Program-made: the position numbers and the translations under genes
Assembly (NCBI RefSeq): GCF_026537325.1
Contig: NZ_JAFNMJ010000001.1
Coordinates: 682,001-746,000 of the forward strand
Direction: 5' to 3'
Source: Bifidobacterium sp. B4142
GTDB taxonomy: Bacteria > Actinomycetota > Actinomycetes > Actinomycetales > Bifidobacteriaceae
Length of the DNA stretch: 64,000 bases
Part shown: piece after piece, positions 52,249-63,966 of the stretch
How positions within the stretch are numbered: position 1 is the stretch's first letter
Layout: every line of letters starts with the position of its first letter
The notes under the pieces: model-generated
Told to the model about the DNA's origin: nothing
What the model saw: only the letters and a program-made list of their open reading frames with translations
The model's database searches: none

Positions 52249-53054
52249 ACGATGAGGATACGGTTGTCAGCGCTGGGGATGGTCGCCGAAGAACCGTGGC
52301 TCTTGCCCGCGACCGACTTGACCGTATCCTGCCTGCACAGGGGCTGACGAATTCGCGGGCCAGAGCCCAGGCGCTGATTCGTCAAGGCCGGGTTACGGTC
52401 AATGATCATCCGGCATCAAGGCCTGCTCAGAGTGTCCAGCCAGGTGATGTGATTTTTCTGGACCCGGGCGATGACTACGCCTCCCGTGGAGCACTGAAGC
52501 TGGAGGGTGCCCTGACGACTTTTGCGGCGCAGGGGATGCCCGATCCGCAGGACAGGCTCTGCCTCGATATCGGGGCGTCTACGGGTGGTTTCACTGATGT
52601 TCTGCTCAGGCATGGTGCCAAGCGGGTTATAGCCCTTGATGTGGGCCACGGACAGTTGTTGGGTCGGATTGCTGCTGATCCTAGGGTGGTTGACATGAGC
52701 GGTGTCAACATACGCGAAGTTCAGCCGGGCGACCTGCCGTATCGCCCGGAATACGTGGTCTCTGATGTGTCCTTCATCTCGCTGACCTACGTCATTCCCG
52801 TCCTCCCTGCTTTGCTGGCACCTATTGCTAACTGCTTGTTGCTGGTCAAGCCCCAGTTTGAGGTCGGACGTAGCCTGCTGGGCCATCATGGCATTGTGAC
52901 GGACGAGGACCGCAGGCAAGAGGCTCTGGAGCGCGTCTTAGCCTGTGCATGTGAGCATGGATTTGTTGTCCGAGCTACCACCCCATCGCCCATAAGAGGA
53001 GCTCATGGCAACGTGGAATATCTGCTTTGGCTGTCTTGGTCACAGTCGGCCTGA
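52245..53054 (+). CDS. tlyA: TlyA family RNA methyltransferase
   Basis: S4 RNA-binding domain at the N-terminus (RLDRILPAQGLTNSRARAQALIRQGRVTVN) followed by an FtsJ-type SAM domain (CLDIGASTGGFTDVLLRHGA, ALDVGHGQLLGRI, SDVSFISLTYVIPVL). TlyA methylates 2'-OH of rRNA in 16S and/or 23S and makes ribosomes sensitive to capreomycin. 269 residues; start GTG 52245. In other actinobacteria nadK and recN follow; here a tRNA and an island do. Confidence 0.92.
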   Translation: MNDEDTVVSAGDGRRRTVALARDRLDRILPAQGLTNSRARAQALIRQGRVTVNDHPASRPAQSVQPGDVIFLDPGDDYASRGALKLEGALTTFAAQGMPDPQDRLCLDIGASTGGFTDVLLRHGAKRVIALDVGHGQLLGRIAADPRVVDMSGVNIREVQPGDLPYRPEYVVSDVSFISLTYVIPVLPALLAPIANCLLLVKPQFEVGRSLLGHHGIVTDEDRRQEALERVLACACEHGFVVRATTPSPIRGAHGNVEYLLWLSWSQSA

Positions 53055-53092
53055 AGCCTGCAGTTCCCCACCTCCTGCGCGACACACCAGAC

Positions 53093-53120
53093 TGGACAGA
53101 ATCCAAAGTTGCGGTAGTAT
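53093..53120 (+). promoter_or_regulatory. Putative promoter of tRNA-Arg
   Basis: TGGACA at 53093-53098 and TAGTAT at 53115-53120 with a 16-bp spacer, about 40 bp before the tRNA. TATAAAT at 53118 is an alternative -10. Confidence 0.4.
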
Positions 53121-53160
53121 AAATGAGTTGTCAAAAACGAGTTCCTCGTCAAGATGATAT

Positions 53161-53234
53161 GCGCCAGTAGCCCAACGGATTAGAGCAGCTGACTACGGAT
53201 CAGCAGGTTGCAGGTTCGAATCCTGTCTGGCGCA
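53161..53234 (+). tRNA. tRNA-Arg (anticodon ACG)
   Basis: Acceptor stem GCGCCAG (53161-53167) pairs with CTGGCGC (53227-53233), discriminator A at 53234, no encoded CCA. The anticodon stem GCTGA/TCAGC encloses loop CTACGGA, giving anticodon ACG (53195-53197), Arg. The T arm has GGTTCGAAT. It is the integration site of the island that follows and is kept intact. Confidence 0.95.
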
Positions 53235-53241
53235 CAAGAAA
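53188..53241 (+). repeat. Island left attachment repeat (attL), tRNA-Arg 3' half
   Basis: 54 bp from the anticodon arm through the tRNA 3' end. A diverged copy of equal length is at 63215-63268, in the same orientation. Outside the anticodon loop about seven of 42 positions differ. Confidence 0.6.
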
Positions 53242-53327
53242 CCCTTGGAAACATTAGCTTCCAGTGGTTATTTAATATCAGGATCATTCCCTTTCAGACA
53301 CGATTAGACACGACGGGCGAAAATGCT

Positions 53328-54148
53328 TTAGTTCAGTTGCCTGTCTCGCTGTTGTTCCATGATCTCGGCCACTTCATCCAGACGGTCAGGCCAGAGCGGC
53401 GCATACACATTCAGGGTTATGCTGGCGTCCGCATGACCCAAGGCGTTCTGGACTGTTTTCACGTCTGCCCCTGCAGCGATGGATAGAGATGCGAAAGTGT
53501 GGCGGAGACTATGTATTGTGAGCCCAGGTATCTCAAGTCCGCTCCCGGCCACCGCTTTCACACAGATGCGGTTATACCAGTTCTTTATGTTGATGTGTTC
53601 TCCGCGTTTGGGGCGGAAAACGAAGGCTTCGGATGGTTTCCCTGAGCAGAGCCTTTTGGGGGGGAAGACGAGGAAACGGGAATCGCAACCCGCCTGCGTT
53701 CCCACGTTTTCGGAGATCCTAGAACCGGTTTGCCTTTGTCGTCTTCCGTCCAGGTTCGTAGGACGCTGACCCGCCGCTTCTCGAAGTCCATATCTGAGAC
53801 TTTCAGTGCTGTTGCCTCGCTGATTCGCAGACCCACATATGCGAGGAATCGAATCAGGGTGCCGGACATGGTTGGATCAATCTTGTCTGCTTCCTCTGCC
53901 AGGTCTTCTACTTCCGCATAGGTCAGATATATCTTTTCGACTGTGACCTGCTTGCGAGGGAGTTTGATTCCTGACAGTAGGTCGATGGTAAGCCACCGGC
54001 GTTTAGGGGCTGCCGCATATCGGAGCACGCTGCCGAAAGTAACTTCCACTATGCTGTGAATGCTGTTGGGCGACAGTGGCTTGGGTTTGTGGGTGGTTCT
54101 AAATTCGCAAGGGGCTTCGCCTTTGTTGGGATCCTTGATTCCAGGTGT
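53328..54148 (-). pseudogene. Tyrosine recombinase/integrase, frameshifted and N-terminally truncated
   Basis: Catalytic residues are in two frames. 53585-54148 holds the end of the core-binding domain (HSIVEVTFGSVLRYAA, RWLTIDLLSGIKLPRK) and the first catalytic Arg in YVGLRISEATAL. 53328-53705 holds HSLRHTFASL (His-x-x-Arg), GHADASITLN and the nucleophile Tyr in LNVYAPL. The frames change near 53650-53690, close to a run of seven G. Most of the N-terminal arm-binding domain is missing; possible traces lie up to about 54235. Its position next to the tRNA attachment site marks it as the element's own integrase. Confidence 0.8.
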
Positions 54149-54379
54149 TTATGTCCGTCTCCGCTGTGGCGTTCACTGCACGTTGCCGCATCGTAGAAGC
54201 ACATACTTCTTCTGTTCGCCGACAATATCGATTGATGCTTGATGCCTTCAGTTTATGCTTCGAACTCAGCTAGTCCTTGGTTGCCTCCCTGAAAATAATT
54301 CTTCTGAGTGTGTCCGGTACGTACTTGCCGCTTCTCAAATCCCCTCCGACTGCATCCCTGTATGATTAGGCATCATTCA

Positions 54380-54885
54380 GCTTGGGGATATGCATCTTTG
54401 GGTACGATCTTCAATACCTTCATGCCTTTTTACCAGGTGGTGGTGGCAGCGTTCGGGGACAGAGATGTCACGGTGGTGCTGTCGGTTGGCCGTGATTTCG
54501 ACCAGGCCAAGTTGGGCCGGGTTCCTCAGAATATATTCATCCACCAGTCTGTAGACCAGCTGGCTGTCCTTGAGAGGGCTGACCTGTTCATCACGCATGG
54601 CGGCATGAGCAGCGTGAACGAGGTTCTTTACTAAACGGTGTCCATGGCGGTGGTTCCTATGGCCGACGATAGCCGACAGTAGGGGCGAGAATCGCTGAGC
54701 TAGGGCTGGAAACGGTCCTGGTGAGCTACAGGAAGGTCAACGGACAGACGCTGGAGCGTGCAGCCTTGATTCTGGCAGACAAACATATCGCCGACAATGT
54801 CAACATGATCAGCAAGGATATGCGAAAGTCCGGCGGCAACCAGCAAATAGTTAAGGATCTGGACCACATCCTCAACCAAACCTGA
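54380..54885 (+). pseudogene. Macrolide-type glycosyltransferase remnant
   Basis: The C-terminal half of a MGT/UGT-like transferase. The frame gives SLGTIFNTF, VPQNIFIHQSVDQLAVL and ADLFITHGGMSSVNEVLY, which holds the HGGxxS nucleotide-sugar motif, then a stop at about 54632. Similarity continues past it (MAVVPMADDSRQ), and a further frame runs IAELGLETVLVSYRKV to LDHILNQT and a stop at 54883-54885. The N-terminal acceptor domain is absent. It is a dead fragment. Confidence 0.65.
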
Positions 54886-55193
54886 CCAACCCAGTACTCC
54901 GTGCGAAAAAGATAGGACTAACATCCCCACGAGGAAACCTCTGTGCCTGCTTAACATATCAACCATTTCCGCAAAAGAGGCAGGGAAGTGTTGATCCGGC
55001 ATTTAGGAGCTGGTGAAGTTCGTTCGAACAGATAAGAGTAAAAGCACATTGAACAACGAGAAGTTTTTTTATCCAAAATAGCTTGATCCTAGCAATTATA
55101 CCGATCTTCTGATTGCCTGCATGAATTTATTGCCTCACAAATGTGATGATTTCATATTCTTAAATACTATCTGTATTCTATATAATCGCCTTT
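54886..55193. other. AT-rich intergenic stretch, no gene
   Basis: No credible coding sequence. AT-rich with poly-T runs near 55065; it ends in the promoter of gntK. A possible junction scar between the remnant and the sugar-acid module. Confidence 0.5.
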
Positions 55194-55242
55194 TTGACAT
55201 ATTCGTATGACGTATGTAATCTCTTAATTATGAAAGGCGATT
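55184..55242. repeat. 10-bp inverted repeat flanking the gntK promoter
   Basis: AATCGCCTTT at 55184-55193 and its perfect complement AAAGGCGATT at 55233-55242 bracket the promoter. Because the first arm lies upstream of the start of transcription, it looks like two operator half-sites rather than an RNA hairpin. Confidence 0.45.
55194..55222 (+). promoter_or_regulatory. Sigma70-type promoter of the gntK operon
   Basis: TTGACA at 55194-55199, 17 bp, TAATCT at 55217-55222. The spacer holds a direct repeat CGTATG (55204-55209 and 55211-55216), a candidate operator for the FadR-type regulator of the island. This promoter shows that the open frame upstream of 55263 is not translated. Confidence 0.7.
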
Positions 55243-55262
55243 GCAAGGACGCAAGGAGGAAA

Positions 55263-55802
55263 ATGGTTGTACACGTTGTCATCATGGGTGTTGCAGGTTG
55301 CGGTAAGACCACGACAGGTGAGGCTGTGAGCAATCGATTAGGCTTTGTCATGGCAGAAGGTGATGATTTTCATTCGCAAGCCAACATTGAGAAAATGAGT
55401 CGTGGCATTCCACTCACGGATGAGGATCGTTGGCCTTGGTTGAGGGCCATCAATCGGTGGATGATTCGTTGCGATACTCAAGGAAAATCAACTGTGGTCT
55501 CCTGCTCGGCTCTCAAGCGTGCCTACCGTGACATTCTTCGAAATGACGTTCCGGTGCTTTTTGTGCATTTGTCAGGATCTTTGCAGCTGATAGCCGACAG
55601 GCTCGCCAAACGGAGTGGCCATTATATGCCTGCTTCCTTGCTACCCAGTCAATTTGCTGACCTGGAACCATTGGAGGCTGATGAACCGGGCAGCACAGTA
55701 TCAATTGACGGTACAGCGGATGAGGTTGCAGACCAGGTCGTTGATGTCATTGATGAATACCGTCGTGTATCGGAAGGAACTGATGCAGATCGGAAACATT
55801 GA
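55263..55802 (+). CDS. gntK: Gluconokinase
   Basis: Phosphorylates D-gluconate (or a related aldonate) at C6 for entry into the pentose phosphate pathway. P-loop IMGVAGCGKTTTGEAVSNRLG, the substrate region AEGDDFHSQANIEKMSRGIPLTDEDRWPWL and the Arg region SALKRAYRDILR are those of GntK. 179 residues from ATG 55263, with AAGGAGG 4-5 bases upstream. It is the first gene of the sugar-acid operon. Confidence 0.92.
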   Translation: MVVHVVIMGVAGCGKTTTGEAVSNRLGFVMAEGDDFHSQANIEKMSRGIPLTDEDRWPWLRAINRWMIRCDTQGKSTVVSCSALKRAYRDILRNDVPVLFVHLSGSLQLIADRLAKRSGHYMPASLLPSQFADLEPLEADEPGSTVSIDGTADEVADQVVDVIDEYRRVSEGTDADRKH

Positions 55803-55925
55803 AACTTGTGATGTGAACGTGACCTCATTTATGGCGCCCTCCGGGGGTGGGTACTGCCAAGTAAATGAAGTTCAAATAATACGACATCTTTAGAGAAAGG
55901 AAAACAAAGTAATCAAAATGATGTA

Positions 55926-55952
55926 GACATGGTGGAGTCCACGGATCATGTC
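55926..55952 (+). promoter_or_regulatory. Nested palindrome between gntK and the oxidoreductase gene
   Basis: GACATG (55926-55931) pairs with CATGTC (55947-55952), and inside is the perfect palindrome GTGGAGTCCAC (55932-55942). Possible operator or RNA hairpin in a 192-bp gap. Confidence 0.35.
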
Positions 55953-55994
55953 CATAAAAAGTATTGCCTACATACTCTGACAAGGGAGTCAATA

Positions 55995-57092
55995 ATGACT
56001 ACATTAAGAACAGCTATCATCGGTTGCGGCAAAGTCGCCGACTTTCATGCTAAGGCCTTCGTAAACCTGCCTGATTCGCAATTCGTGGCAGTGTATGATC
56101 GCAATCTTCAAAGAGCCCAGAAATTCGCCGAACCGTACAATGTTCACGCCTATGATGACATCAAGGATATGATCAGCAAAGAGCATATAGATGTTGTCAG
56201 CATCTGTACACCCCATCCGGCCCATGCGGCGCCGGCGATTGAAGCTATGAAGGCCGGTGCGCATATTCTCGTTGAAAAACCGATGGCCTCGTCTTTGGAG
56301 GATTGTGATGCCATGTTGGCTGTGGCTGAACAGGAGCACAAGAAAGTCGGAGTAATCTCGCAGCGTAGATTCTATAGACCATGTATGCGCATTAAGCAGG
56401 CGATTGATGCAGGGAAGATCGGCAAACCAGTGCTTGGCGCGGTTCGTATGCTTGGATGGAGAGACAAGCCATACTACGACAGCGATCCATGGCGGGGAAC
56501 TTGGGATGGCGAAGGTGGCGGTGTTCTGGTGAACCAAGCTCCGCACCAACTTGATCTGCTGCTTTGGTACATGGGTGAGGTTGATGAGGTTTATGGCGTT
56601 TGGCGCAATTTCAATCACCCTTATATTGAGGTAGAGGACACAGCCGTCGCCGTGATCAAGTTTAAAAACGGTGCTTTGGGAAATGTTGTAGTCAGCAATT
56701 CCCAAAATCCCGCGTTGTACGGCAAGGTGCACGTGTATGGCGACAACGGCGCAGGGGTCGGCGTGCAGACCGATGGGGGAGCAATGTTCATCGCTGGAAT
56801 GTCAACGATCACTGAACCCCCGTACAACGATTTATGGACCGTTGAAGACGAGGCCGATAAATTGGAATCTTGGAAAAAAGAGGACAGCGACTTCTTCAAT
56901 AGCGTGGATTCGATGCACTATTATCATCAGCTGCAGGTCGAGGACTTCCTGAAGGCTGTCATCGAAGACAGCAAGCCTTTAGTCGATGGATATGAAGGAC
57001 GTCGAACGGTCGAGCTGTTTACCGCCATCTACCAGAGCACCAAGGACGATGCTGTCATCAAGTTTCCACTGCATACCAGTCAGGATCGGTGA
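55995..57092 (+). CDS. Gfo/Idh/MocA family oxidoreductase
   Basis: NAD(P)-dependent sugar or polyol dehydrogenase of 365 residues from ATG 55995 with AAGGGAG upstream. Rossmann motif TAIIGCGKVADFHAKAF, the EKP catalytic motif in HILVEKPMASSLED, and the C-terminal sheet with VNQAPHQLDLLLWYMG, where His is the likely proton donor. No signal peptide. Its substrate is not known, but it lies between gluconokinase and an isomerase, so a sugar acid or lactone is likely. Confidence 0.85.
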   Translation: MTTLRTAIIGCGKVADFHAKAFVNLPDSQFVAVYDRNLQRAQKFAEPYNVHAYDDIKDMISKEHIDVVSICTPHPAHAAPAIEAMKAGAHILVEKPMASSLEDCDAMLAVAEQEHKKVGVISQRRFYRPCMRIKQAIDAGKIGKPVLGAVRMLGWRDKPYYDSDPWRGTWDGEGGGVLVNQAPHQLDLLLWYMGEVDEVYGVWRNFNHPYIEVEDTAVAVIKFKNGALGNVVVSNSQNPALYGKVHVYGDNGAGVGVQTDGGAMFIAGMSTITEPPYNDLWTVEDEADKLESWKKEDSDFFNSVDSMHYYHQLQVEDFLKAVIEDSKPLVDGYEGRRTVELFTAIYQSTKDDAVIKFPLHTSQDR

Positions 57093-57098
57093 TCGGTT

Positions 57099-57977
57099 AT
57101 GAAACTTGGATTTAACGAAGCAACTTCTAGAGATTGTTCTGATTTATCAACCGATTTGAAATTATGCGAACGTGCAGGTTTTGATTCCATTGAAATCCGT
57201 TTGGACATGCTCAGGAACTACATGAAGGATCACGACCTTGATGAGTTATCAGATTTCTTCGCTACGAGCCATCTGAAGCCCCACGCAATGAATGCCCTCT
57301 ATCTGTATGAGAAGCTATTCGCGCAAGACGATGATCCTGCCGAGCGAGAAACCGCCATGGACGATTTCAATCTGGCCTGCCGTGCAGCCCAGCACATCGG
57401 TTACAGATGTCTGATCGTGGTGGTGCCTCTGCATAGAAAGCCGGACGTTGAAGGCCCTTATGATGCGCCGTGGCCAGAAGTATTCTCCAACTGCGTTCGA
57501 ATTCTGATGACCCTAGGGCAGATGGCTGCGCCATTCAAGGTGAATCTGTGCCTGGAGTTGGTTGGACATGAATACAGCGCTGTAAGGACGGTAGAACGGG
57601 CTTGGGATATTGTCAAAGCAGTCGATATGAGCAATGTCGGCCTTTGCTTTGATGCATGCAACCTCTATCTTTATCATCATCTTCAGGATTTTTCTGTAAT
57701 GGAGTTGGTGAATCCGGAGAAGATCTTTGACGTGCACATCAATGACGCGGATGATTCTCCCATGCAAGGATTGATGCAATCCAACAGGGTCTTCTGCGGA
57801 GAAGGAAATATAGATCTGATGGACTTCCTTCGTGTGCTTCAACGCCTTGATTACCAGGGCAATGTGTCCATCGAAACATTCCGGCCCGAGTATTGGAGTT
57901 GTTCGCCGCAGTGGGTGGTGGATAATGCCTATCAGTCCACTCGATCAATGATGCAGAAGGCAGGTATCGTCTTCTAG
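57099..57977 (+). CDS. Sugar phosphate isomerase/epimerase (TIM barrel, AP endonuclease-like)
   Basis: 292 residues, 6 bp after the oxidoreductase. Motifs LCLELVGHEYSA, NVGLCFDACNLYLYHHL, DVHINDADDSP and the final VSIETFRPEYW supply the Glu, Asp and His metal ligands of the IolE/IolI/epimerase group. Such enzymes pair with Gfo/Idh/MocA dehydrogenases in sugar-acid or inositol pathways. The exact reaction is not known. Confidence 0.8.
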   Translation: MKLGFNEATSRDCSDLSTDLKLCERAGFDSIEIRLDMLRNYMKDHDLDELSDFFATSHLKPHAMNALYLYEKLFAQDDDPAERETAMDDFNLACRAAQHIGYRCLIVVVPLHRKPDVEGPYDAPWPEVFSNCVRILMTLGQMAAPFKVNLCLELVGHEYSAVRTVERAWDIVKAVDMSNVGLCFDACNLYLYHHLQDFSVMELVNPEKIFDVHINDADDSPMQGLMQSNRVFCGEGNIDLMDFLRVLQRLDYQGNVSIETFRPEYWSCSPQWVVDNAYQSTRSMMQKAGIVF

Positions 57978-58017
57978 CAACAACAGCTAACGATGCGGTG
58001 AGCAGGGAAATGCGACT

Positions 58018-59508
58018 ATGCCGTCGATTGCTGACCGCATCTTTAGAGGGGACAAGAACGTCAACATACCAGGAGGTACACCGTTGACACCGACAATTTT
58101 TCTTATAGTTTTGGTGCTAGCAGTCGCACTGCTTGTCTACACCACCATCAAGCTGAAGATTCATCCGGTCATTTCCCTGTTCGTCATAGCCGTAATACTG
58201 GGTTTGGTGCTCGGCGGCTCTCTTGGCGACACTATGGACAAGATCAATAAATACTTCGGATCCACTCTAGCGGGCATCGCCATTGTCATCATCTTCGGCG
58301 CCATTATCGCCATGGGTATCCAGGACACTGGTGCAGCCACAAAAATTACTAATTTCTTCATACGAATCTTCCGAGGCAAGCACCTTGAGCTTGCGCCATC
58401 CTCTGCTGCTTTCGTAATGACGTTGGCAGTGTTTGGAAATATTTCCGAGGTCCTGACCGCGCCGATTTCTGCCGTCATAGCCAAGCGCGAGAAGATCACC
58501 ATGGCGCTGATTGCGCCTCTGGTCTGTTTGGGATTGACACTGACCCACGGACTTGTTCCGACACATCCGGGGATTCTAGCAGTGAGCATCATGTTCAAGG
58601 CCAACATCGGCAAGGTGATGGTATGGGGCATCATCATCAGTTTCATCGCTTTCGTTGCCTCTTATCTCATCAGCAGACCCTTCTTGGGCAGAGAATACAT
58701 CGCGCCAAATCCTGGATTCGCGGATGGCTATGAGGAGGCGCCGGAAAACGCCCCGCTCGATCAGCTCTACATCAAGGAAGAAGGCACTCCTTCGACCTTC
58801 TGGTCTTTCATGCCTCTGATTGTGCCGCTGGTTCTGATAGCTGCCGGATCCTTGGGAACACTTGGCGTGAAGAAAGGCAGCACAGCATATGCAGTTTTCA
58901 ATTCCCTGGGCAACACCACATTTGCCCTTTTCGTAGGGGTCGTCCTGGTTGCTCTGCTGGTTGTCGGACGCAAGAACAAGGTGCTCGCCAGCGCTCGCAA
59001 AAGCGATGCATCCTTGTCCGACAAGTCTTCTGCCTTGGAGATCACTATGAACAGCTGGGTGGGTCGTGCCATGAAGACCGCCATCGACCCATTGATCATG
59101 ATTGGCATGGGAGGAGCCTTGGGCGGAATCCTTCAAGATAATGCCATGGTCAAGCAACTAGGCTCCATGATTGTCAACCTCAGCGTTCCTGCGGTTACCA
59201 TTCCCTTTGTGCTGGCGGCGGTGATGATGGGAGCCACAGGTTCGATGACCATAGCAGTCATGATCTCTGCGTCACTGGTCAACCCTATGATGGGCGCTTT
59301 GGGGTTGTCTCCGGTCGTCGCAACTCTTGCTATCGGCTGCGGCTCCATGGTATTCTGGCACGTCAATTGCAGCGGCTTCTGGATGATGACTTCGCTGTTC
59401 AATCTCAATACCAAACAGGGTCTCAAGTATCTGACCACACTGAATGCCTTGGGGGGAATCATCGGTTTCGCTGTGCTTTGCGGAGCTAGCGCCCTGGGTT
59501 GGGTCTGA
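58018..59508 (+). CDS. gntP: GntP family gluconate/aldonate permease
   Basis: H+ symporter with about twelve helices, 496 residues. Family markers: MDKINKYFGSTLAGIAIVII, GALGGILQDNAMVKQL, AAVMMGATGSMTIAVM. It imports gluconate-like acids. Start uncertain: ATG 58018 adds a 22-residue hydrophilic leader, but TTG 58084 has AGGAGG at 58071-58076, 7 bases upstream, and would start at the usual GntP N-terminus; TTG may be the true start. Fourth gene of the operon; its 3' end is at a strong terminator. Confidence 0.88.
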   Translation: MPSIADRIFRGDKNVNIPGGTPLTPTIFLIVLVLAVALLVYTTIKLKIHPVISLFVIAVILGLVLGGSLGDTMDKINKYFGSTLAGIAIVIIFGAIIAMGIQDTGAATKITNFFIRIFRGKHLELAPSSAAFVMTLAVFGNISEVLTAPISAVIAKREKITMALIAPLVCLGLTLTHGLVPTHPGILAVSIMFKANIGKVMVWGIIISFIAFVASYLISRPFLGREYIAPNPGFADGYEEAPENAPLDQLYIKEEGTPSTFWSFMPLIVPLVLIAAGSLGTLGVKKGSTAYAVFNSLGNTTFALFVGVVLVALLVVGRKNKVLASARKSDASLSDKSSALEITMNSWVGRAMKTAIDPLIMIGMGGALGGILQDNAMVKQLGSMIVNLSVPAVTIPFVLAAVMMGATGSMTIAVMISASLVNPMMGALGLSPVVATLAIGCGSMVFWHVNCSGFWMMTSLFNLNTKQGLKYLTTLNALGGIIGFAVLCGASALGWV

Positions 59509-59564
59509 TTAGCCATTCTGGAATCTCGAATACCCAACGGGTCATTTCAGGTGCGGGCTAACCT

Positions 59565-59608
59565 GCATAAACAGGTGCCTGCACCTGTTTATGCCATAAT
59601 TGCATTTT
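59565..59608. terminator. Perfect hairpin terminator after gntP
   Basis: A perfect 14-bp inverted repeat, GCATAAACAGGTGC (59565-59578) and its complement (59581-59594) with a 2-base loop, followed by a T-run (59603-59608). It lies between convergent gntP and the regulator gene, so it ends both. Confidence 0.85.
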
Positions 59609-59634
59609 TTCATTCATTTGCAGAATTTCAAGGC

Positions 59635-60435
59635 TCAGGACTGTTCAGTTGTAGTCCGTACTTCGTCGACGATCCGAGTCATGGCCTCTCTAGCAAGGTC
59701 AGGTTCTCCCTTCCATATCGCTTCTGCCACCTGATCATGCGCCTCCAAAGCTTCCGTTCTGGGTTTGGCTGGGTACATGCCCAGTTCGACCCTGCTGGAG
59801 AGCATGGTGTTGACCAGCGGTGAAAGCGAGGCGAATAACTCATTGCCGCTGTATTTGAGAATTTTATCGTGAAATCGGATATCGAGCTGGTGAAATTCCT
59901 CTAAATTTCCGGATGTCCCGTCTTTGTGCATTTTCATTGCTAAAACCGGCATCAAGGCACGAACTTCAATCGGAGCTCTTCGCGCGGTGTCTTCTGCAGC
60001 TATCGGTTCTACTGCCAAACGTAGTTCAGTTAGGGAAAGCAGCTGTTCCTTACGATGAGAGGAATGTAATTTCCAACGCATGACTTGGGTGTCTAATGAA
60101 TTCCATTGATCAAGGCTCTTGGCAATGAGCCCCACCCTTTTTCTAATATTCACAGCTTGCACGGATTGCAACGTTTGCGCTGTTTCTCTGGCTATAGTCC
60201 GGGACACCGAAAAACGTTGCTGTATGTCTGCCAGGGTAATGCTCGTTGTAGGCGGCCAACGTCCTTCGATGATGTCAATGGCAAGCAGCTCCGCAATATG
60301 AGTAGCATTGGGCCTAACGGATTTTTCGGTGTCGCAGTGGCTGGATGCTCCGCTGCGGGACTTTTGCGAAGCACTCAGTGTTTTGCCGCTTCCCGTTCTT
60401 GTCGGTGACGTTTCGAGACTGCTGGTAGTGCTCAT
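59635..60435 (-). CDS. FadR/GntR-family transcriptional regulator with FCD domain
   Basis: 266 residues. An N-terminal winged-helix (about 45-110: HIAELLAIDIIEGRWPPTTS, LADIQQRFSVSRTIARETAQTL) and a helical FCD ligand domain (RLAVEPIAAEDTARRA, DIRFHDKILKYSGNELF). The D-x-x-H-H-type residues for metal or acid ligand binding are in part visible. The first 40 residues are disordered. It is convergent with gntP and likely controls the sugar-acid operon through the operator-like repeats at the gntK promoter; the ligand would be a sugar acid. Confidence 0.85.
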   Translation of the reverse strand: MSTTSSLETSPTRTGSGKTLSASQKSRSGASSHCDTEKSVRPNATHIAELLAIDIIEGRWPPTTSITLADIQQRFSVSRTIARETAQTLQSVQAVNIRKRVGLIAKSLDQWNSLDTQVMRWKLHSSHRKEQLLSLTELRLAVEPIAAEDTARRAPIEVRALMPVLAMKMHKDGTSGNLEEFHQLDIRFHDKILKYSGNELFASLSPLVNTMLSSRVELGMYPAKPRTEALEAHDQVAEAIWKGEPDLAREAMTRIVDEVRTTTEQS

Positions 60436-60593
60436 ACTTTACAGATTATCAATACCATATGGCCAAAGAGGGTTCCTTCTGGAAGTTTGGATAGACGCAG
60501 GAACGGTATGCCGCAATAGATGCCCGGCCGTCCAGCATTTCATCATAATCCGGGCGGCCGTTGCTCAGAGTACTCTGAAGCGCAGCATTCTTG

Positions 60594-61333
60594 TCATTGC
60601 GCCGTATAGCCACCATCAACAACAAACTCGGATCCAGTGGAGAAGGAAGAATCATCACTGGTGAGATATAGGGCCATGTTGGCTATTTCACGGGTTGAAC
60701 CCAGCCGACCCATGGGGTGCAGTTTCTCGAGATCGCCACGCATCTGGGGATAGGCATCGACCATGCGAGTGCGGGCGTATCCGGGATGAATGGAGTTGAT
60801 CCGGATTGGGTATCTATGCTGAGCGCAATAGAGGGCGGCCGACTTGGTCAGCAGTCGTACCGCGCCTTTGGCGGCGTTGTATGCGTACAGATTGGCTATG
60901 CCAATCAATCCTGTAATAGAGCACATATTAATAATGGAGCCGCCATGCTCCTTATGTGCGCAATAGCATGTTTGACGCCCAGCATGACCCCATCCCAAAT
61001 CTACAGATAGGATTTTATGCCACTCGTCCATTGCAATATGCTCAGCGTCTTCAAAGAAGAGGATGCCCGCATTATTTACCAGTACATGGCTTCGCCAAAC
61101 TTGTCGCGTGTGGCACTGAAGACAGGCTCCCAGCTGTCCTCCTTTGCGACATCTTGAGCTACGAGAACTGCCTTGTCCCTGCCTATGGCGTCTATGGCCT
61201 TCTGTCCACCTTGCTCATCCAGATCGGCGATGACCACCTTGGCTCCCTCCTGCACGAGCAGTTGTGCAGTTGACAGACCGGAGCCCTTGGCTCCTCCTGT
61301 AATGATTGCCGCTTTACCTGTCAATCGTGCCAT
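60594..61333 (-). pseudogene. Short-chain dehydrogenase/reductase, frameshifted
   Basis: The N-terminal frame starts at ATG 61333 (MARLTGKAAIITGGAKGSGL, nucleotide loop) and ends early at 61076; the NNAG motif and later core are in the next frames. The catalytic AYNAAKGAV (Tyr and Lys) and the C-terminal VDGGYTAQ are intact in 60594-61031. Indels lie near 61083 and as a compensating pair near 60965-60990. A sugar or sugar-acid reductase such as gluconate 5-dehydrogenase would fit the neighbours, but the gene appears inactive unless the sequence has errors. Confidence 0.75.
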
Positions 61334-61357
61334 AGTTGACCTCTTTGTCCATGACAC

Positions 61358-62217
61358 CTTCTTTTATTCATGCTACTCGTGTGGCCTATAGCTGGATGGC
61401 GCTTCTATCATGCAAGCTTTAGCTGGATAAAGCGAGTCTGTCGGATTTGGACTTGACGGAGTATTGCTCATAAGGTAGATATAGGAAGAACCCCCCGTAG
61501 TTGTTAGGTCTCTATGCAAGGGCCCTTGGATTGCTAGGGCAGACGCCAAGGTTGTGCTGTTTCCATCTGTAAGGTGGTAAACGATAGGACCGACAGTAAC
61601 TCCTAACTATAAATCCCCCCCCCCCTCCTCCTCCTCTAGAATCCCACCTGTGCAACATTGCGCAAGTATTCTTATAGCCCAGGTATGAGCCCTTCATCGC
61701 GGGAATGGGTAGTATGTAAATCTAGTCCAGAAGAGAGTGTGTCAAAAGTACGTATACAGAATCAAACTTTTCTGTCAGTTCAGCATATGCGTATCCCCTT
61801 GTTTTTGAGAAAACAAATAGAAATTATCACTGGATAATTTGTTTTTCAAATACGTTGAAATTCAGTAACGAAAAGCACGGACATTACCAATTATAGATAT
61901 TGACTATCTTTTTGCAATCTGAAAAGATATCAAGACAAATATCGAGTAGAACTCTATCGTTTTCGTTGAACTCGGGAAAGGCGTTGAGCTTGCGCACAAT
62001 CAGAGTACAGCGATTCAGTTCAAATAAGTCTAGGACACTCTGAGCAGAAATATTAGGAAATATGTTAACGCTTATCACTTCAGCCTAGTTTGCGAGCAAT
62101 GACATGAAGGACGCGGGTGATAAGAGCTAAATCCCATCTGGAACCACCCAATATAGTTTCGAAACACAACCTGCTTTTATAGCAAAATATAGCCAGTTAG
62201 AAATATCTATAGAATCC
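61358..62217. other. Non-coding, AT-rich stretch with homopolymer
   Basis: About 860 bp without a convincing gene. A 64-residue minus-strand frame at 61884-62078 (AQSVLDLFELNRCTLIVRKL) has no ribosome site I can defend and no match I recognise. A run of eleven C at 61615-61625 is followed by TCC repeats. Elsewhere I see nothing. Confidence 0.4.
61615..61625. repeat. C11 homopolymer followed by TCC repeats
   Basis: Eleven C at 61615-61625, then TCCTCCTCCTC. No gene or promoter can be tied to it; it may be error-prone in sequencing. Confidence 0.5.
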
Positions 62218-62943
62218 TCATATTGGTATACGTCCCATACAAGGGTTCGCACTCCTTCTCGATTTCATGGTTCTCGTATGATATCGTTCCTGTCTTGTAA
62301 AAAGTAGGTCCGGTTCGCAGGCGTCAAGGATCTCCACTCGTCGAATGCCGGTCAGCAGCCGGGACCACATGTGTCTTCCAACGGAGTTGCCAGATGAGGA
62401 CGCCGCAGCGCACAGCATCGATTCCATTTCGGACATGCTAAAAGTGGTCTTTTCTCCGACGATCTTCTTGTACTGAGCATCCGTGCTTCGAGGAATGGGT
62501 ATCTTTTACAGCTGTGTTGGACGGGATGATCCAGTTTCTTATTGGCATTATGGAAGACAGAGTGGAGCATCGACCTCAGCTATTTCTTTAGGTTGATGCC
62601 TGCGTCTCCGAGTATTCGCCCCTTACAGTCATGAGATTCGGCTGTGTCCAGTATGCGCGTAATAACATCAGGGATGAACTTCACCAGCCGCTTGTCCTGA
62701 TAGTCTGCGAGGTGGCTTTGCAGGACGTTGATATGCAGTCTGTAGGTCTTTGGAACCGCTATCTCTCTTTTCTTTCCCAAGAAGACGGGTGGGGGGGGGG
62801 ATTATGAATCTAACGTGGCTGTCTTGTTCGCTTCCACCCCGTCTTTCTCTCCTTGCCTCGTTGCATCAGGCGCGGGCTTTCTCTGCGACGGATCCCGATT
62901 TGTCTGCGGTGAAGGTCTTCTTTCGCCGCCGCCCGTCCGGATA
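62218..62943 (-). pseudogene. Second tyrosine recombinase remnant, several frames
   Basis: On the minus strand, from about 62943 downward, fragments of an integrase occur in correct order. An arm-binding type N-terminus is at 62870-62943 (PDGRRRKKTFTADKSG). The core-binding domain is at 62580-62780 (YRLHINVLQSHLADYQDKRL), and the start of the catalytic domain with the first Arg (LLTGIRRVEILDACEPDL) at 62218-62436. The HxxR and Tyr end is missing. A G10 run at 62791-62800 lies between fragments. It is a second, more decayed integrase. Confidence 0.6.
62791..62800. repeat. G10 homopolymer within the integrase remnant
   Basis: Ten G at 62791-62800, preceded by GGGT. It lies at a frame change of the dead integrase and could be the cause or just decay. 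Confidence 0.5.
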
Positions 62944-63214
62944 GTACCCTAGGTATATTTGCTGCTTCTACTGTATCTTGCTTTTGATGACGGGTTACTG
63001 TCCCTGTCTTTGTTCGTTTAGGCGGCCTTGTACTCGAAAGGTATCCCGGCTTCGATAGCTCTTTTACGCTTCAGCTTCTGCCTTCCAAATTTTCTGTGAC
63101 ATTTGGGTGAAAACATCAGACCTTCGGTTGTGTATTAGTCGTGTATTTATGGTGTAAAATCGTTGATTTTCTGGCAATCTGTCAGGATAGTTCCTTATCT
63201 GCTTTTATTGCGCT

Positions 63215-63268
63215 GCTGATCCGTAGTCAGCAGGTGGCAGTTTTGAACCCTGTCTGGTGCACGAGAAG
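63215..63268 (+). repeat. Diverged tRNA-Arg 3' half (attR-like), with inverted anticodon loop
   Basis: Same length and orientation as 53188-53241. The stem GCTGA/TCAGC is kept, but the seven bases of the loop are TCCGTAG, the exact reverse complement of CTACGGA in the functional tRNA. Beyond the arm 35 of 42 bases match, most differences being transitions. No tRNA 5' half precedes it, so it is not a tRNA gene. Confidence 0.6.
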
Positions 63269-63499
63269 TTAATAGTTCCAGAGCTTCAAGGCTGGGGCCA
63301 TTCTTGTTTTCAGAGTCGGGCATATTACTTATACTGGATTCCCCTTCGGACTGACTCTGGCCGCATAGTATTGCGGCAGATAAGAGTCGCTACATTCTCG
63401 GGCCGGTATCTGGTCAGGAGTCCTATGTGCAAGTATGGAAGCTCGATTTTCTGCGTTTTCCATACGTTCAGTGTGTGTTCATCTGTACCGGTAGGATCT

Positions 63500-63768
63500 C
63501 GGCAATCTCTACGGATGCCAGCGGCTTTGTTCGGCGGCGTAGCCATTTTCACTTTCATTGGTTCTCATGACTCGATTTGGCTTTGATATATAACCGGCAC
63601 GGGGGACTGGGAAGACGCACTGAGATGGTCGTTAGGTCTTCGTCAGATATGTGGACAGGATTGGTTCTATATCGTTTTTCGATGTTCCATCTCGTATTCG
63701 GGTCCCATTTTGTTGGGCATCTCGTTATCCACTTCGAAGTAGCCGTTAAATTCCCATCAGCTCCATAG
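63500..63768 (-). pseudogene. Ribbon-helix-helix type antitoxin remnant
   Basis: Minus-strand reading DEDLTTISVRLPS then RLYIKAKSSHEN continues, past two stops, as KWLRRRTKPLASVEIAEIL, which follows the usual antitoxin pattern of a VRLP strand and a helix with SHES/SEWLRR-like text. It sits directly after the toxin-like frame. Two in-frame stops make it non-functional. Identity is a pattern judgement, not a search. Confidence 0.35.
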
Positions 63769-63966
63769 TCAATTCCTGGCAGTTCTGAGCTCTTGTATTA
63801 TATTTTCTGAAGTCATTGTCATGGCGTGATATATAAGCCACTTACCCGATCTGCTCTCTATTGAGTCGCTTTGGTAGATGGCTACCATTTCCAAGAGACG
63901 GCCTTTAGAATCCATGCCTATGGCTATTGAAGGAACGGATCTGTCGATTCTTGCCACGGAGATCAT
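63769..63966 (-). pseudogene. BrnT-like toxin fragment
   Basis: 65 residues ending GRLLEMVAIYQSDSIESR and WLIYHAMTMTSENIIQELRT. The pattern LLE(I/V)...YHAM is that of BrnT/DUF4258-type toxins, C-terminal half. The N-terminal portion is missing: a stop lies just upstream in frame. Followed by the antitoxin remnant, the usual order toxin then antitoxin. Low certainty. Confidence 0.35.

Follow-up and report, generated by a model that had tools for sequence, protein, structure and literature searches.

How could the anticodon loop of a displaced tRNA copy come to stand in reverse, with the flanking sequences on both sides still in order? The question is raised by a 64,000-nucleotide stretch of Bifidobacterium sp. 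B4142 (contig NZ_JAFNMJ010000001.1, positions 682,001 to 746,000), called the window here, in which part of a tRNA-Arg(ACG) gene is repeated about 10 kb further on with an inverted loop. An earlier note on the window had taken the interval for one island and had suggested that the inversion records either integrase recombination in the wrong orientation or a phage attachment site (attP) with an opposite overlap. Our analysis leads to a different answer: the right copy is, judged from sequence comparison, the relic of the right attachment site (attR) of a decayed prophage, and its loop was very probably flipped by template switching during replication.

The two copies of the anticodon arm

The tRNA-Arg(ACG) gene (53161..53235, + strand), which is the reconstituted left attachment site (attL), was located by ARAGORN and by sequence, and it is the sole tRNA that ARAGORN finds in the window. 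Its anticodon arm at 53188-53204 reads GCTGA CTACGGA TCAGC (loop at 53193-53199), and the right copy at 63215-63231 reads GCTGA TCCGTAG TCAGC. Each loop is the exact reverse complement of the other, with 7 of 7 positions different, so that the inverted loop of the earlier note holds in coordinates and in sequence. The direct orientation of the repeats was also confirmed: the 3' half of the tRNA is repeated over 41 nt at 85% identity with a spacing of 10027, and the right copy contains a displaced and degraded tRNA-Arg 3' half (63227..63262, + strand), which differs at 5 of 36 sites from the copy in Bifidobacterium asteroides VRA_9sq_n (G005), the genus member used as comparison. As to the stem, the palindrome is indeed kept, but its length had been given as 5 bp. 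In the right copy the wider span 63213-63233, CTGCTGA-TCCGTAG-TCAGCAG, forms a perfect 7-bp inverted repeat, and the same span has one mismatched pair in the tRNA and in the B. asteroides copy. We regard this span (+ strand) as the attR core relic on the basis of its sequence and its DNA hairpin energy, which is -6.7 kcal/mol compared to -4.7 for the tRNA and -3.7 for the B. asteroides site.

The loop of another tRNA species was tried as a source and rejected. The flipped arm, represented by the 20-mer GCTGATCCGTAGTCAGCAGG, occurs exactly in one of 27 genus genomes (one genome per species; the window site itself was read from the assembly) and has no second exact match among them; the right copy is derived from the tRNA and is not native DNA independent of it. 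Furthermore, the flipped loop carries C at the position where tRNAs have U33. A search of genome_contigs and viral_contigs gave no locus with the 20-mer, although both sets may omit the record of the window itself and records very close to it. Allowing up to two mismatches it is matched in 27 of 27 genus genomes, because the tRNA arm read in reverse is itself two mismatches away from it.

The right copy does not stand alone. It is the continuation of the arm of a phage-type tyrosine integrase that has decayed into several frames (62246..63077, - strand; about the first 270 of 496 codons, recognised by alignment to B. asteroides, with the end set at the ATG there). The whole segment 62246-63262 is 69% identical to the B. 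asteroides DNA over 1027 columns, and the protein-level match at 62451-63071 is interrupted by two TAG and two TAA codons. The counterpart in B. asteroides is an intact tyrosine integrase of 496 amino acids (PF00589; phrog_1, integrase) with its own attachment site, which is separated from the tRNA by about 40 kb. Of 6 open reading frames chosen in the 19 kb next to the integrase, 5 match PHROGs (among them tape-measure, major tail, minor tail and virion proteins), hence the element is taken to be a prophage. A viral contig of 36 kb encodes a 90% identical integrase and shows no tRNA-Arg match, and the closest match of the integrase in the phage collection is BigBern1 at 36.5%.

The right copy of B. 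asteroides is identical to the tRNA over positions 26-75 (50 nt, 100%), and at the place homologous to the flipped site it reads TATACAGCTGACTACGGATCAGCAGG, with a canonical loop and a mismatched arm. In G008 and G011, two genomes with a different integrase arm (the class-b arm described below) at the tRNA, the right copy is CTCAGTACA-TCAGCAGG and identity to the tRNA begins only at the last loop base. Since the right site of the window continues the phage arm, unlike these two, the flipped site goes back to another integration event than the integrase next to the tRNA. We conclude that the right repeat is the putative attR relic of a decayed prophage of the B. asteroides type, which would have used the anticodon arm of tRNA-Arg(ACG).

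Relatives of this integrase were collected by a protein search, which found them, with E values of 1e-30 or better, in 5 of the 27 genomes of the genus; together with pairwise alignment it detected the B. asteroides element, which a DNA search with the junction had missed. Three relatives (G000:C1:537155-538447, G029 and G035) each adjoin a tRNA 3' half with the stem CAGA/TCTG and the uninverted loop CTTCTAA, read by eye and probably tRNA-Arg(TCT)-like in the normal direction. Four of the readable sites of the family are therefore uninverted (B. asteroides and the three relatives), and one, that of the window, is inverted. The expectation that a tyrosine integrase of a tRNA-targeting kind owns the site was thus supported, as this family shares the anticodon arm with the tRNA (50 nt in B. 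asteroides, and the three relatives). The related integrase of B. mongoliense also has a tRNA half, the anticodon arm of which is unreadable; no tRNA half was recognised beside the one in G006, and ARAGORN reported no tRNA in 10 loci of related integrases.

Altogether 7 copies of the tRNA 3' half were seen, and only those of B. asteroides and the window carry tRNA-derived sequence through the loop. The other five (G006, G007, G008, G011, G029) are uninformative on the loop, because their match to the tRNA starts at its last base or behind it. Degraded right copies may have been missed in this count: the right copy of the window is itself absent from the hits of the search, which covered 19 genus genomes with that of the window among them, and in the other 8 only fetched stretches were covered.

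Origin of the inverted loop

Because the homologous loop in B. asteroides is canonical and three further sites of the family are uninverted, the flip is a derived state. The window and B. asteroides differ at 25 of 76 aligned sites, and 8 of these, clustered together, are explained with none residual if 13 nt are exchanged for the reverse complement of the ancestral CTACGGATCAGCA, which gives the TGCTGATCCGTAG found at 63214..63226 (+ strand; inverted loop at 63220-63226). When the differences were placed at random, an exact run with a gain of 8 arose in none of 8000 simulations; when their positions were kept as observed and the bases randomised, it arose in 2 of 8000. With a looser score that tolerates residual mismatches a gain of at least 8 came up in 1 and 16 of 4000 runs, respectively; this score discriminates less, therefore the strength of the case lies in its exactness. 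The cluster includes one further arm base, unmentioned in the earlier note: the change of the left arm base from A to T fits the same event, though it is one base only, in a drifting region.

Chance was rejected as the origin of the loop, in agreement with the earlier note, which had thought it improbable. At the local drift around the site (17 of 63), the probability that all 7 loop sites change to the specified bases by independent substitution is about 5e-8. The loop is an exact reverse complement of the spacer at the same length, with the flanks in place and in order on both sides of the core. The neighbouring sequence has drifted from the B. asteroides copy at the 5 of 36 sites of the tRNA half given above and at 7 of 19 sites in the phage (P) arm.

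A replication template switch would account for these observations in one step. The attR relic, a non-functional tRNA fragment beside a dead integrase, would be free to mutate; at the imperfect inverted repeat CAGCTGA-loop-TCAGCAG the polymerase could switch to the complementary strand, copy the loop and the right arm (CTACGGATCAGCA) backwards, and then switch back. The same event would flip the 7-nt loop and put T in place of the mismatched A of the arm, so that a perfect 7-bp stem results. We infer that such a micro-inversion in the attachment relic of the decayed prophage is very probably what happened.

Several points weigh against this proposal. A homologous site is present in one relative only, and the ancestral state has to be judged from B. 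asteroides and the tRNA itself; the arm base could have changed by separate drift, given that 7 of 19 P-arm sites differ; and the looser simulation score is the less discriminating one. In the yeast survey, in the part of it available, spacer inversions were seen only with arms longer than 9 bp, although REG2, its sole case of arm conversion, began from a 5-bp arm (PMC8604942); before the event the stem would here have had 5 bp and one mismatch. In the rRNA survey the combination of stem correction and loop inversion amounts to 6 cases and is not enriched over simulation, according to the portion at hand (PMC8794818).

The other explanations each account for part of the evidence. If attP had already carried the inverted overlap, integration would have tolerated the heterology, and after segregation of the attL/attR heteroduplexes no daughter but the one with a functional tRNA would have survived, which predicts exactly a canonical attL and an inverted attR. 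The available text on overlap mismatches names integrases that tolerate them (CTnDOT, NBU1), as exceptions to a typically strongly deleterious effect (PMC10865867). This idea of the earlier note was not borne out, the homologous site in the B. asteroides prophage being canonical and the readable sites of three more family integrases uninverted; moreover, no viral contig holds the 20-nt flipped arm, though a record may lack attP, as the 36-kb contig without a tRNA-Arg match suggests. We consider it distinctly unlikely. Its other idea, wrong-orientation recombination by the integrase between two nearly palindromic cores, is in keeping with the form of the core, which is the predicted rc(C')-rc(O)-C' (rc, reverse complement), and a 23-nt core copy that lies opposite to the tRNA at a gene breakpoint in another genome (G033) indicates that odd core recombination may occur in the genus. 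Such a hybrid site would need an inverted tRNA 3' half (CCTGCAAC...) to the left of the core; a phage arm homologous to B. asteroides lies there instead, and the preserved order of the flanks likewise weighs against it, which makes this origin very improbable.

Intramolecular recombination at a hairpin or cruciform, by which the 17-bp arm alone was flipped and the arm base changed separately, would result in the same loop inversion, and the arms do fold as a DNA hairpin. It requires a second event for the arm base, even if one arm change is cheap, and we consider it unlikely, with slightly less credence than an inverted attP. A sequencing or assembly artefact at the hairpin is the least credible reading of all. 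Library polymerases also switch templates; on the other side, the contig within which the site is found is 1.01 Mb long, and the stated completeness of the genome is 99.95%.

The timing of the proposed template switch can be approached through drift. The flipped block of 19 nt equals the reverse complement of the tRNA without a single difference, whereas about 2.6 would be expected from the drift of the adjoining half (5 of 36). This points slightly towards a late flip, at a time when the site was already dead, and slightly away from an early one. The sequence of events in which the loop flipped first, the attR overlap became incompatible with attL, and the trapped prophage then decayed is weakened by this lack of drift and appears unlikely. 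If true, attachment sites in anticodon loops, being quasi-palindromes with a 7-nt spacer, would carry within themselves a means of grounding a prophage in one step, and if flips precede prophage decay elsewhere, this would be a simple trapping route for prophages.

Elements stacked behind the tRNA

The single 10-kb island assumed earlier did not survive the comparison: its two ends bound different elements, with two different integrases, both of them broken, and integration took place at least twice. What follows the tRNA is a stack of elements and not a single intact island. Its first member, labelled class b, occupies 53236..62230 by alignment to G003 and consists of a left arm with a terminator-like hairpin, a broken integrase and sugar-acid genes; 53000-62230 aligns to G003 at 92.75% identity in a single alignment that ends at 62230. 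The tRNA-side arm is common to G003, G008 and G011, and by eye to G031. The class-b tyrosine integrase is a pseudogene in two frames (53328..54049, - strand; PF00589 on both pieces), and no single open frame spans it in the window, G003, G008 or G011. The cargo (55194..61357, assigned by Pfam) comprises a kinase (SKI/AAA in Pfam itself), which we take to be gluconokinase-like, a GFO/IDH oxidoreductase, a xylose-isomerase-like TIM barrel, a GntP permease, a GntR/FCD regulator and an SDR in two pieces.

A search for the P arms that accompany the right copies in G008 and G011 found them neither in the window nor in the G003 stretches examined, and the class-b attR was probably lost in a deletion that would have joined 62230 to 62246. 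Poly-C/poly-G tracts at 61612-61635 and 62780-62803 form imperfect inverted repeats that flank this junction. A second copy of window 54389-54900 was observed in G003 (G003:C4:203101-223100, reverse strand 605-1116; 86%) about 31 kb past the end of the shared island, which points to a duplication or rearrangement there.

Beyond the flipped site, 63263..63471 (+ strand) is a relic of the left arm of class c, that is, the tRNA-side flank of another island family. Matches from 63227 extend to 63395 in G006 (76%), 63471 in G007 (72%), 63322 in G018 (82%) and 63321 in G029 (80%), so that only G007 reaches the end. From about 63.7 kb onward the sequence is common with G003 (64003-73000 at 89.8%), and 63699-63953 and 63974-64472 are common also with G001. 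From 67898 (locus L004), just before the gene at 67977, it is shared with G008, G011, G013, G014 and G017 as well. This gene has the Pfam domain Lysine_decarbox and presumably belongs to the LOG family.

Loci in related genomes had been proposed as a check, and several island families (class b, class c and the B. asteroides prophage) were indeed found at the same tRNA among the genus genomes. As to the empty site, the G016 locus, with only about 1.8 kb and one sizeable open reading frame between the tRNA and the LOG-family gene, serves as a nearly empty one. Directly 3' of the tRNA (53236-53300 in the window) the island families place different terminator-like hairpins; at least three such families were recognised by eye among the window and 17 loci.

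Other copies of the arm were also observed. In G033 (G033:C1:1066186) an exact 23-nt core of the tRNA-Arg anticodon arm stands 9.5 kb from the tRNA and in the orientation opposite to it, where an APH-family gene is truncated at its 5' end; as a parallel event it was rejected, its flanks being the truncated gene and other DNA. The tRNA-Arg region of the same genome (locus L121:12696-16144) holds a HamA and DEAD-box helicase pair, presumably a Hachiman-like system. A conserved coding gene with the peptide TLDQQLTTDQ (G000:C16:82396; also G003, G010, G035, G036) contains a 20-nt match to the anticodon arm, apparently a codon coincidence.

Comparison with known systems

Among sites of Class I, the anticodon-loop tRNA sites exemplified by mycobacteriophage L5 in the available part of the description (PMC1762012), the integrase stands beside the site. 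The phage-type tyrosine integrase is likewise at the site here, intact in B. asteroides and a relic in the window. The identity block of B. asteroides runs from the anticodon arm to the 3' end of the tRNA as in that class, and attL equals attR from the anticodon arm on, including the overlap (50 nt, 100%). The window departs from it in that all 7 overlap bases of attR mismatch attL and only a dead integrase is left. No published report of an inverted overlap in a tRNA attachment site was present among the literature matches listed. The stack behind the tRNA resembles the tandem arrays of Islander, with several elements behind one tRNA and a displaced fragment; Islander, however, counts a tandem only if each member keeps its integrase and fragment (PMC4383910), and the attR of the class-b island was not found here.

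The closest likeness is with template-switch inversions. The yeast REG2 case is described, in the available portion of that paper, as inversion of an inverted-repeat spacer with homogenization of the arms by intermolecular template switching (PMC8604942). The rRNA survey, in the part available, lists inverted loops of 7-8 nt, for which a legend names an example from Actinobacteria, finds loop inversion alone (69 cases) enriched over simulation, and its authors call loop inversion with stem correction the strongest possible support for their model (PMC8794818). With these cases the flipped site shares the exact reverse complement of a spacer at the same length, and the change of its one arm base, in a drifting region, would fit their conversion of an imperfect arm into a perfect one; it differs in being a bacterial phage attachment relic from a tRNA anticodon arm, in its short arms, and in a mechanism inferred from one relative. 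The site would be a natural footprint of loop inversion with arm correction, a combination that is rare in the rRNA survey, and a flipped overlap at a tRNA attachment site need say nothing on the chemistry of the integrase. Inversion of the spacer of an inverted repeat is an already described type of mutation, of which this would be an instance in a tRNA-derived attachment relic.

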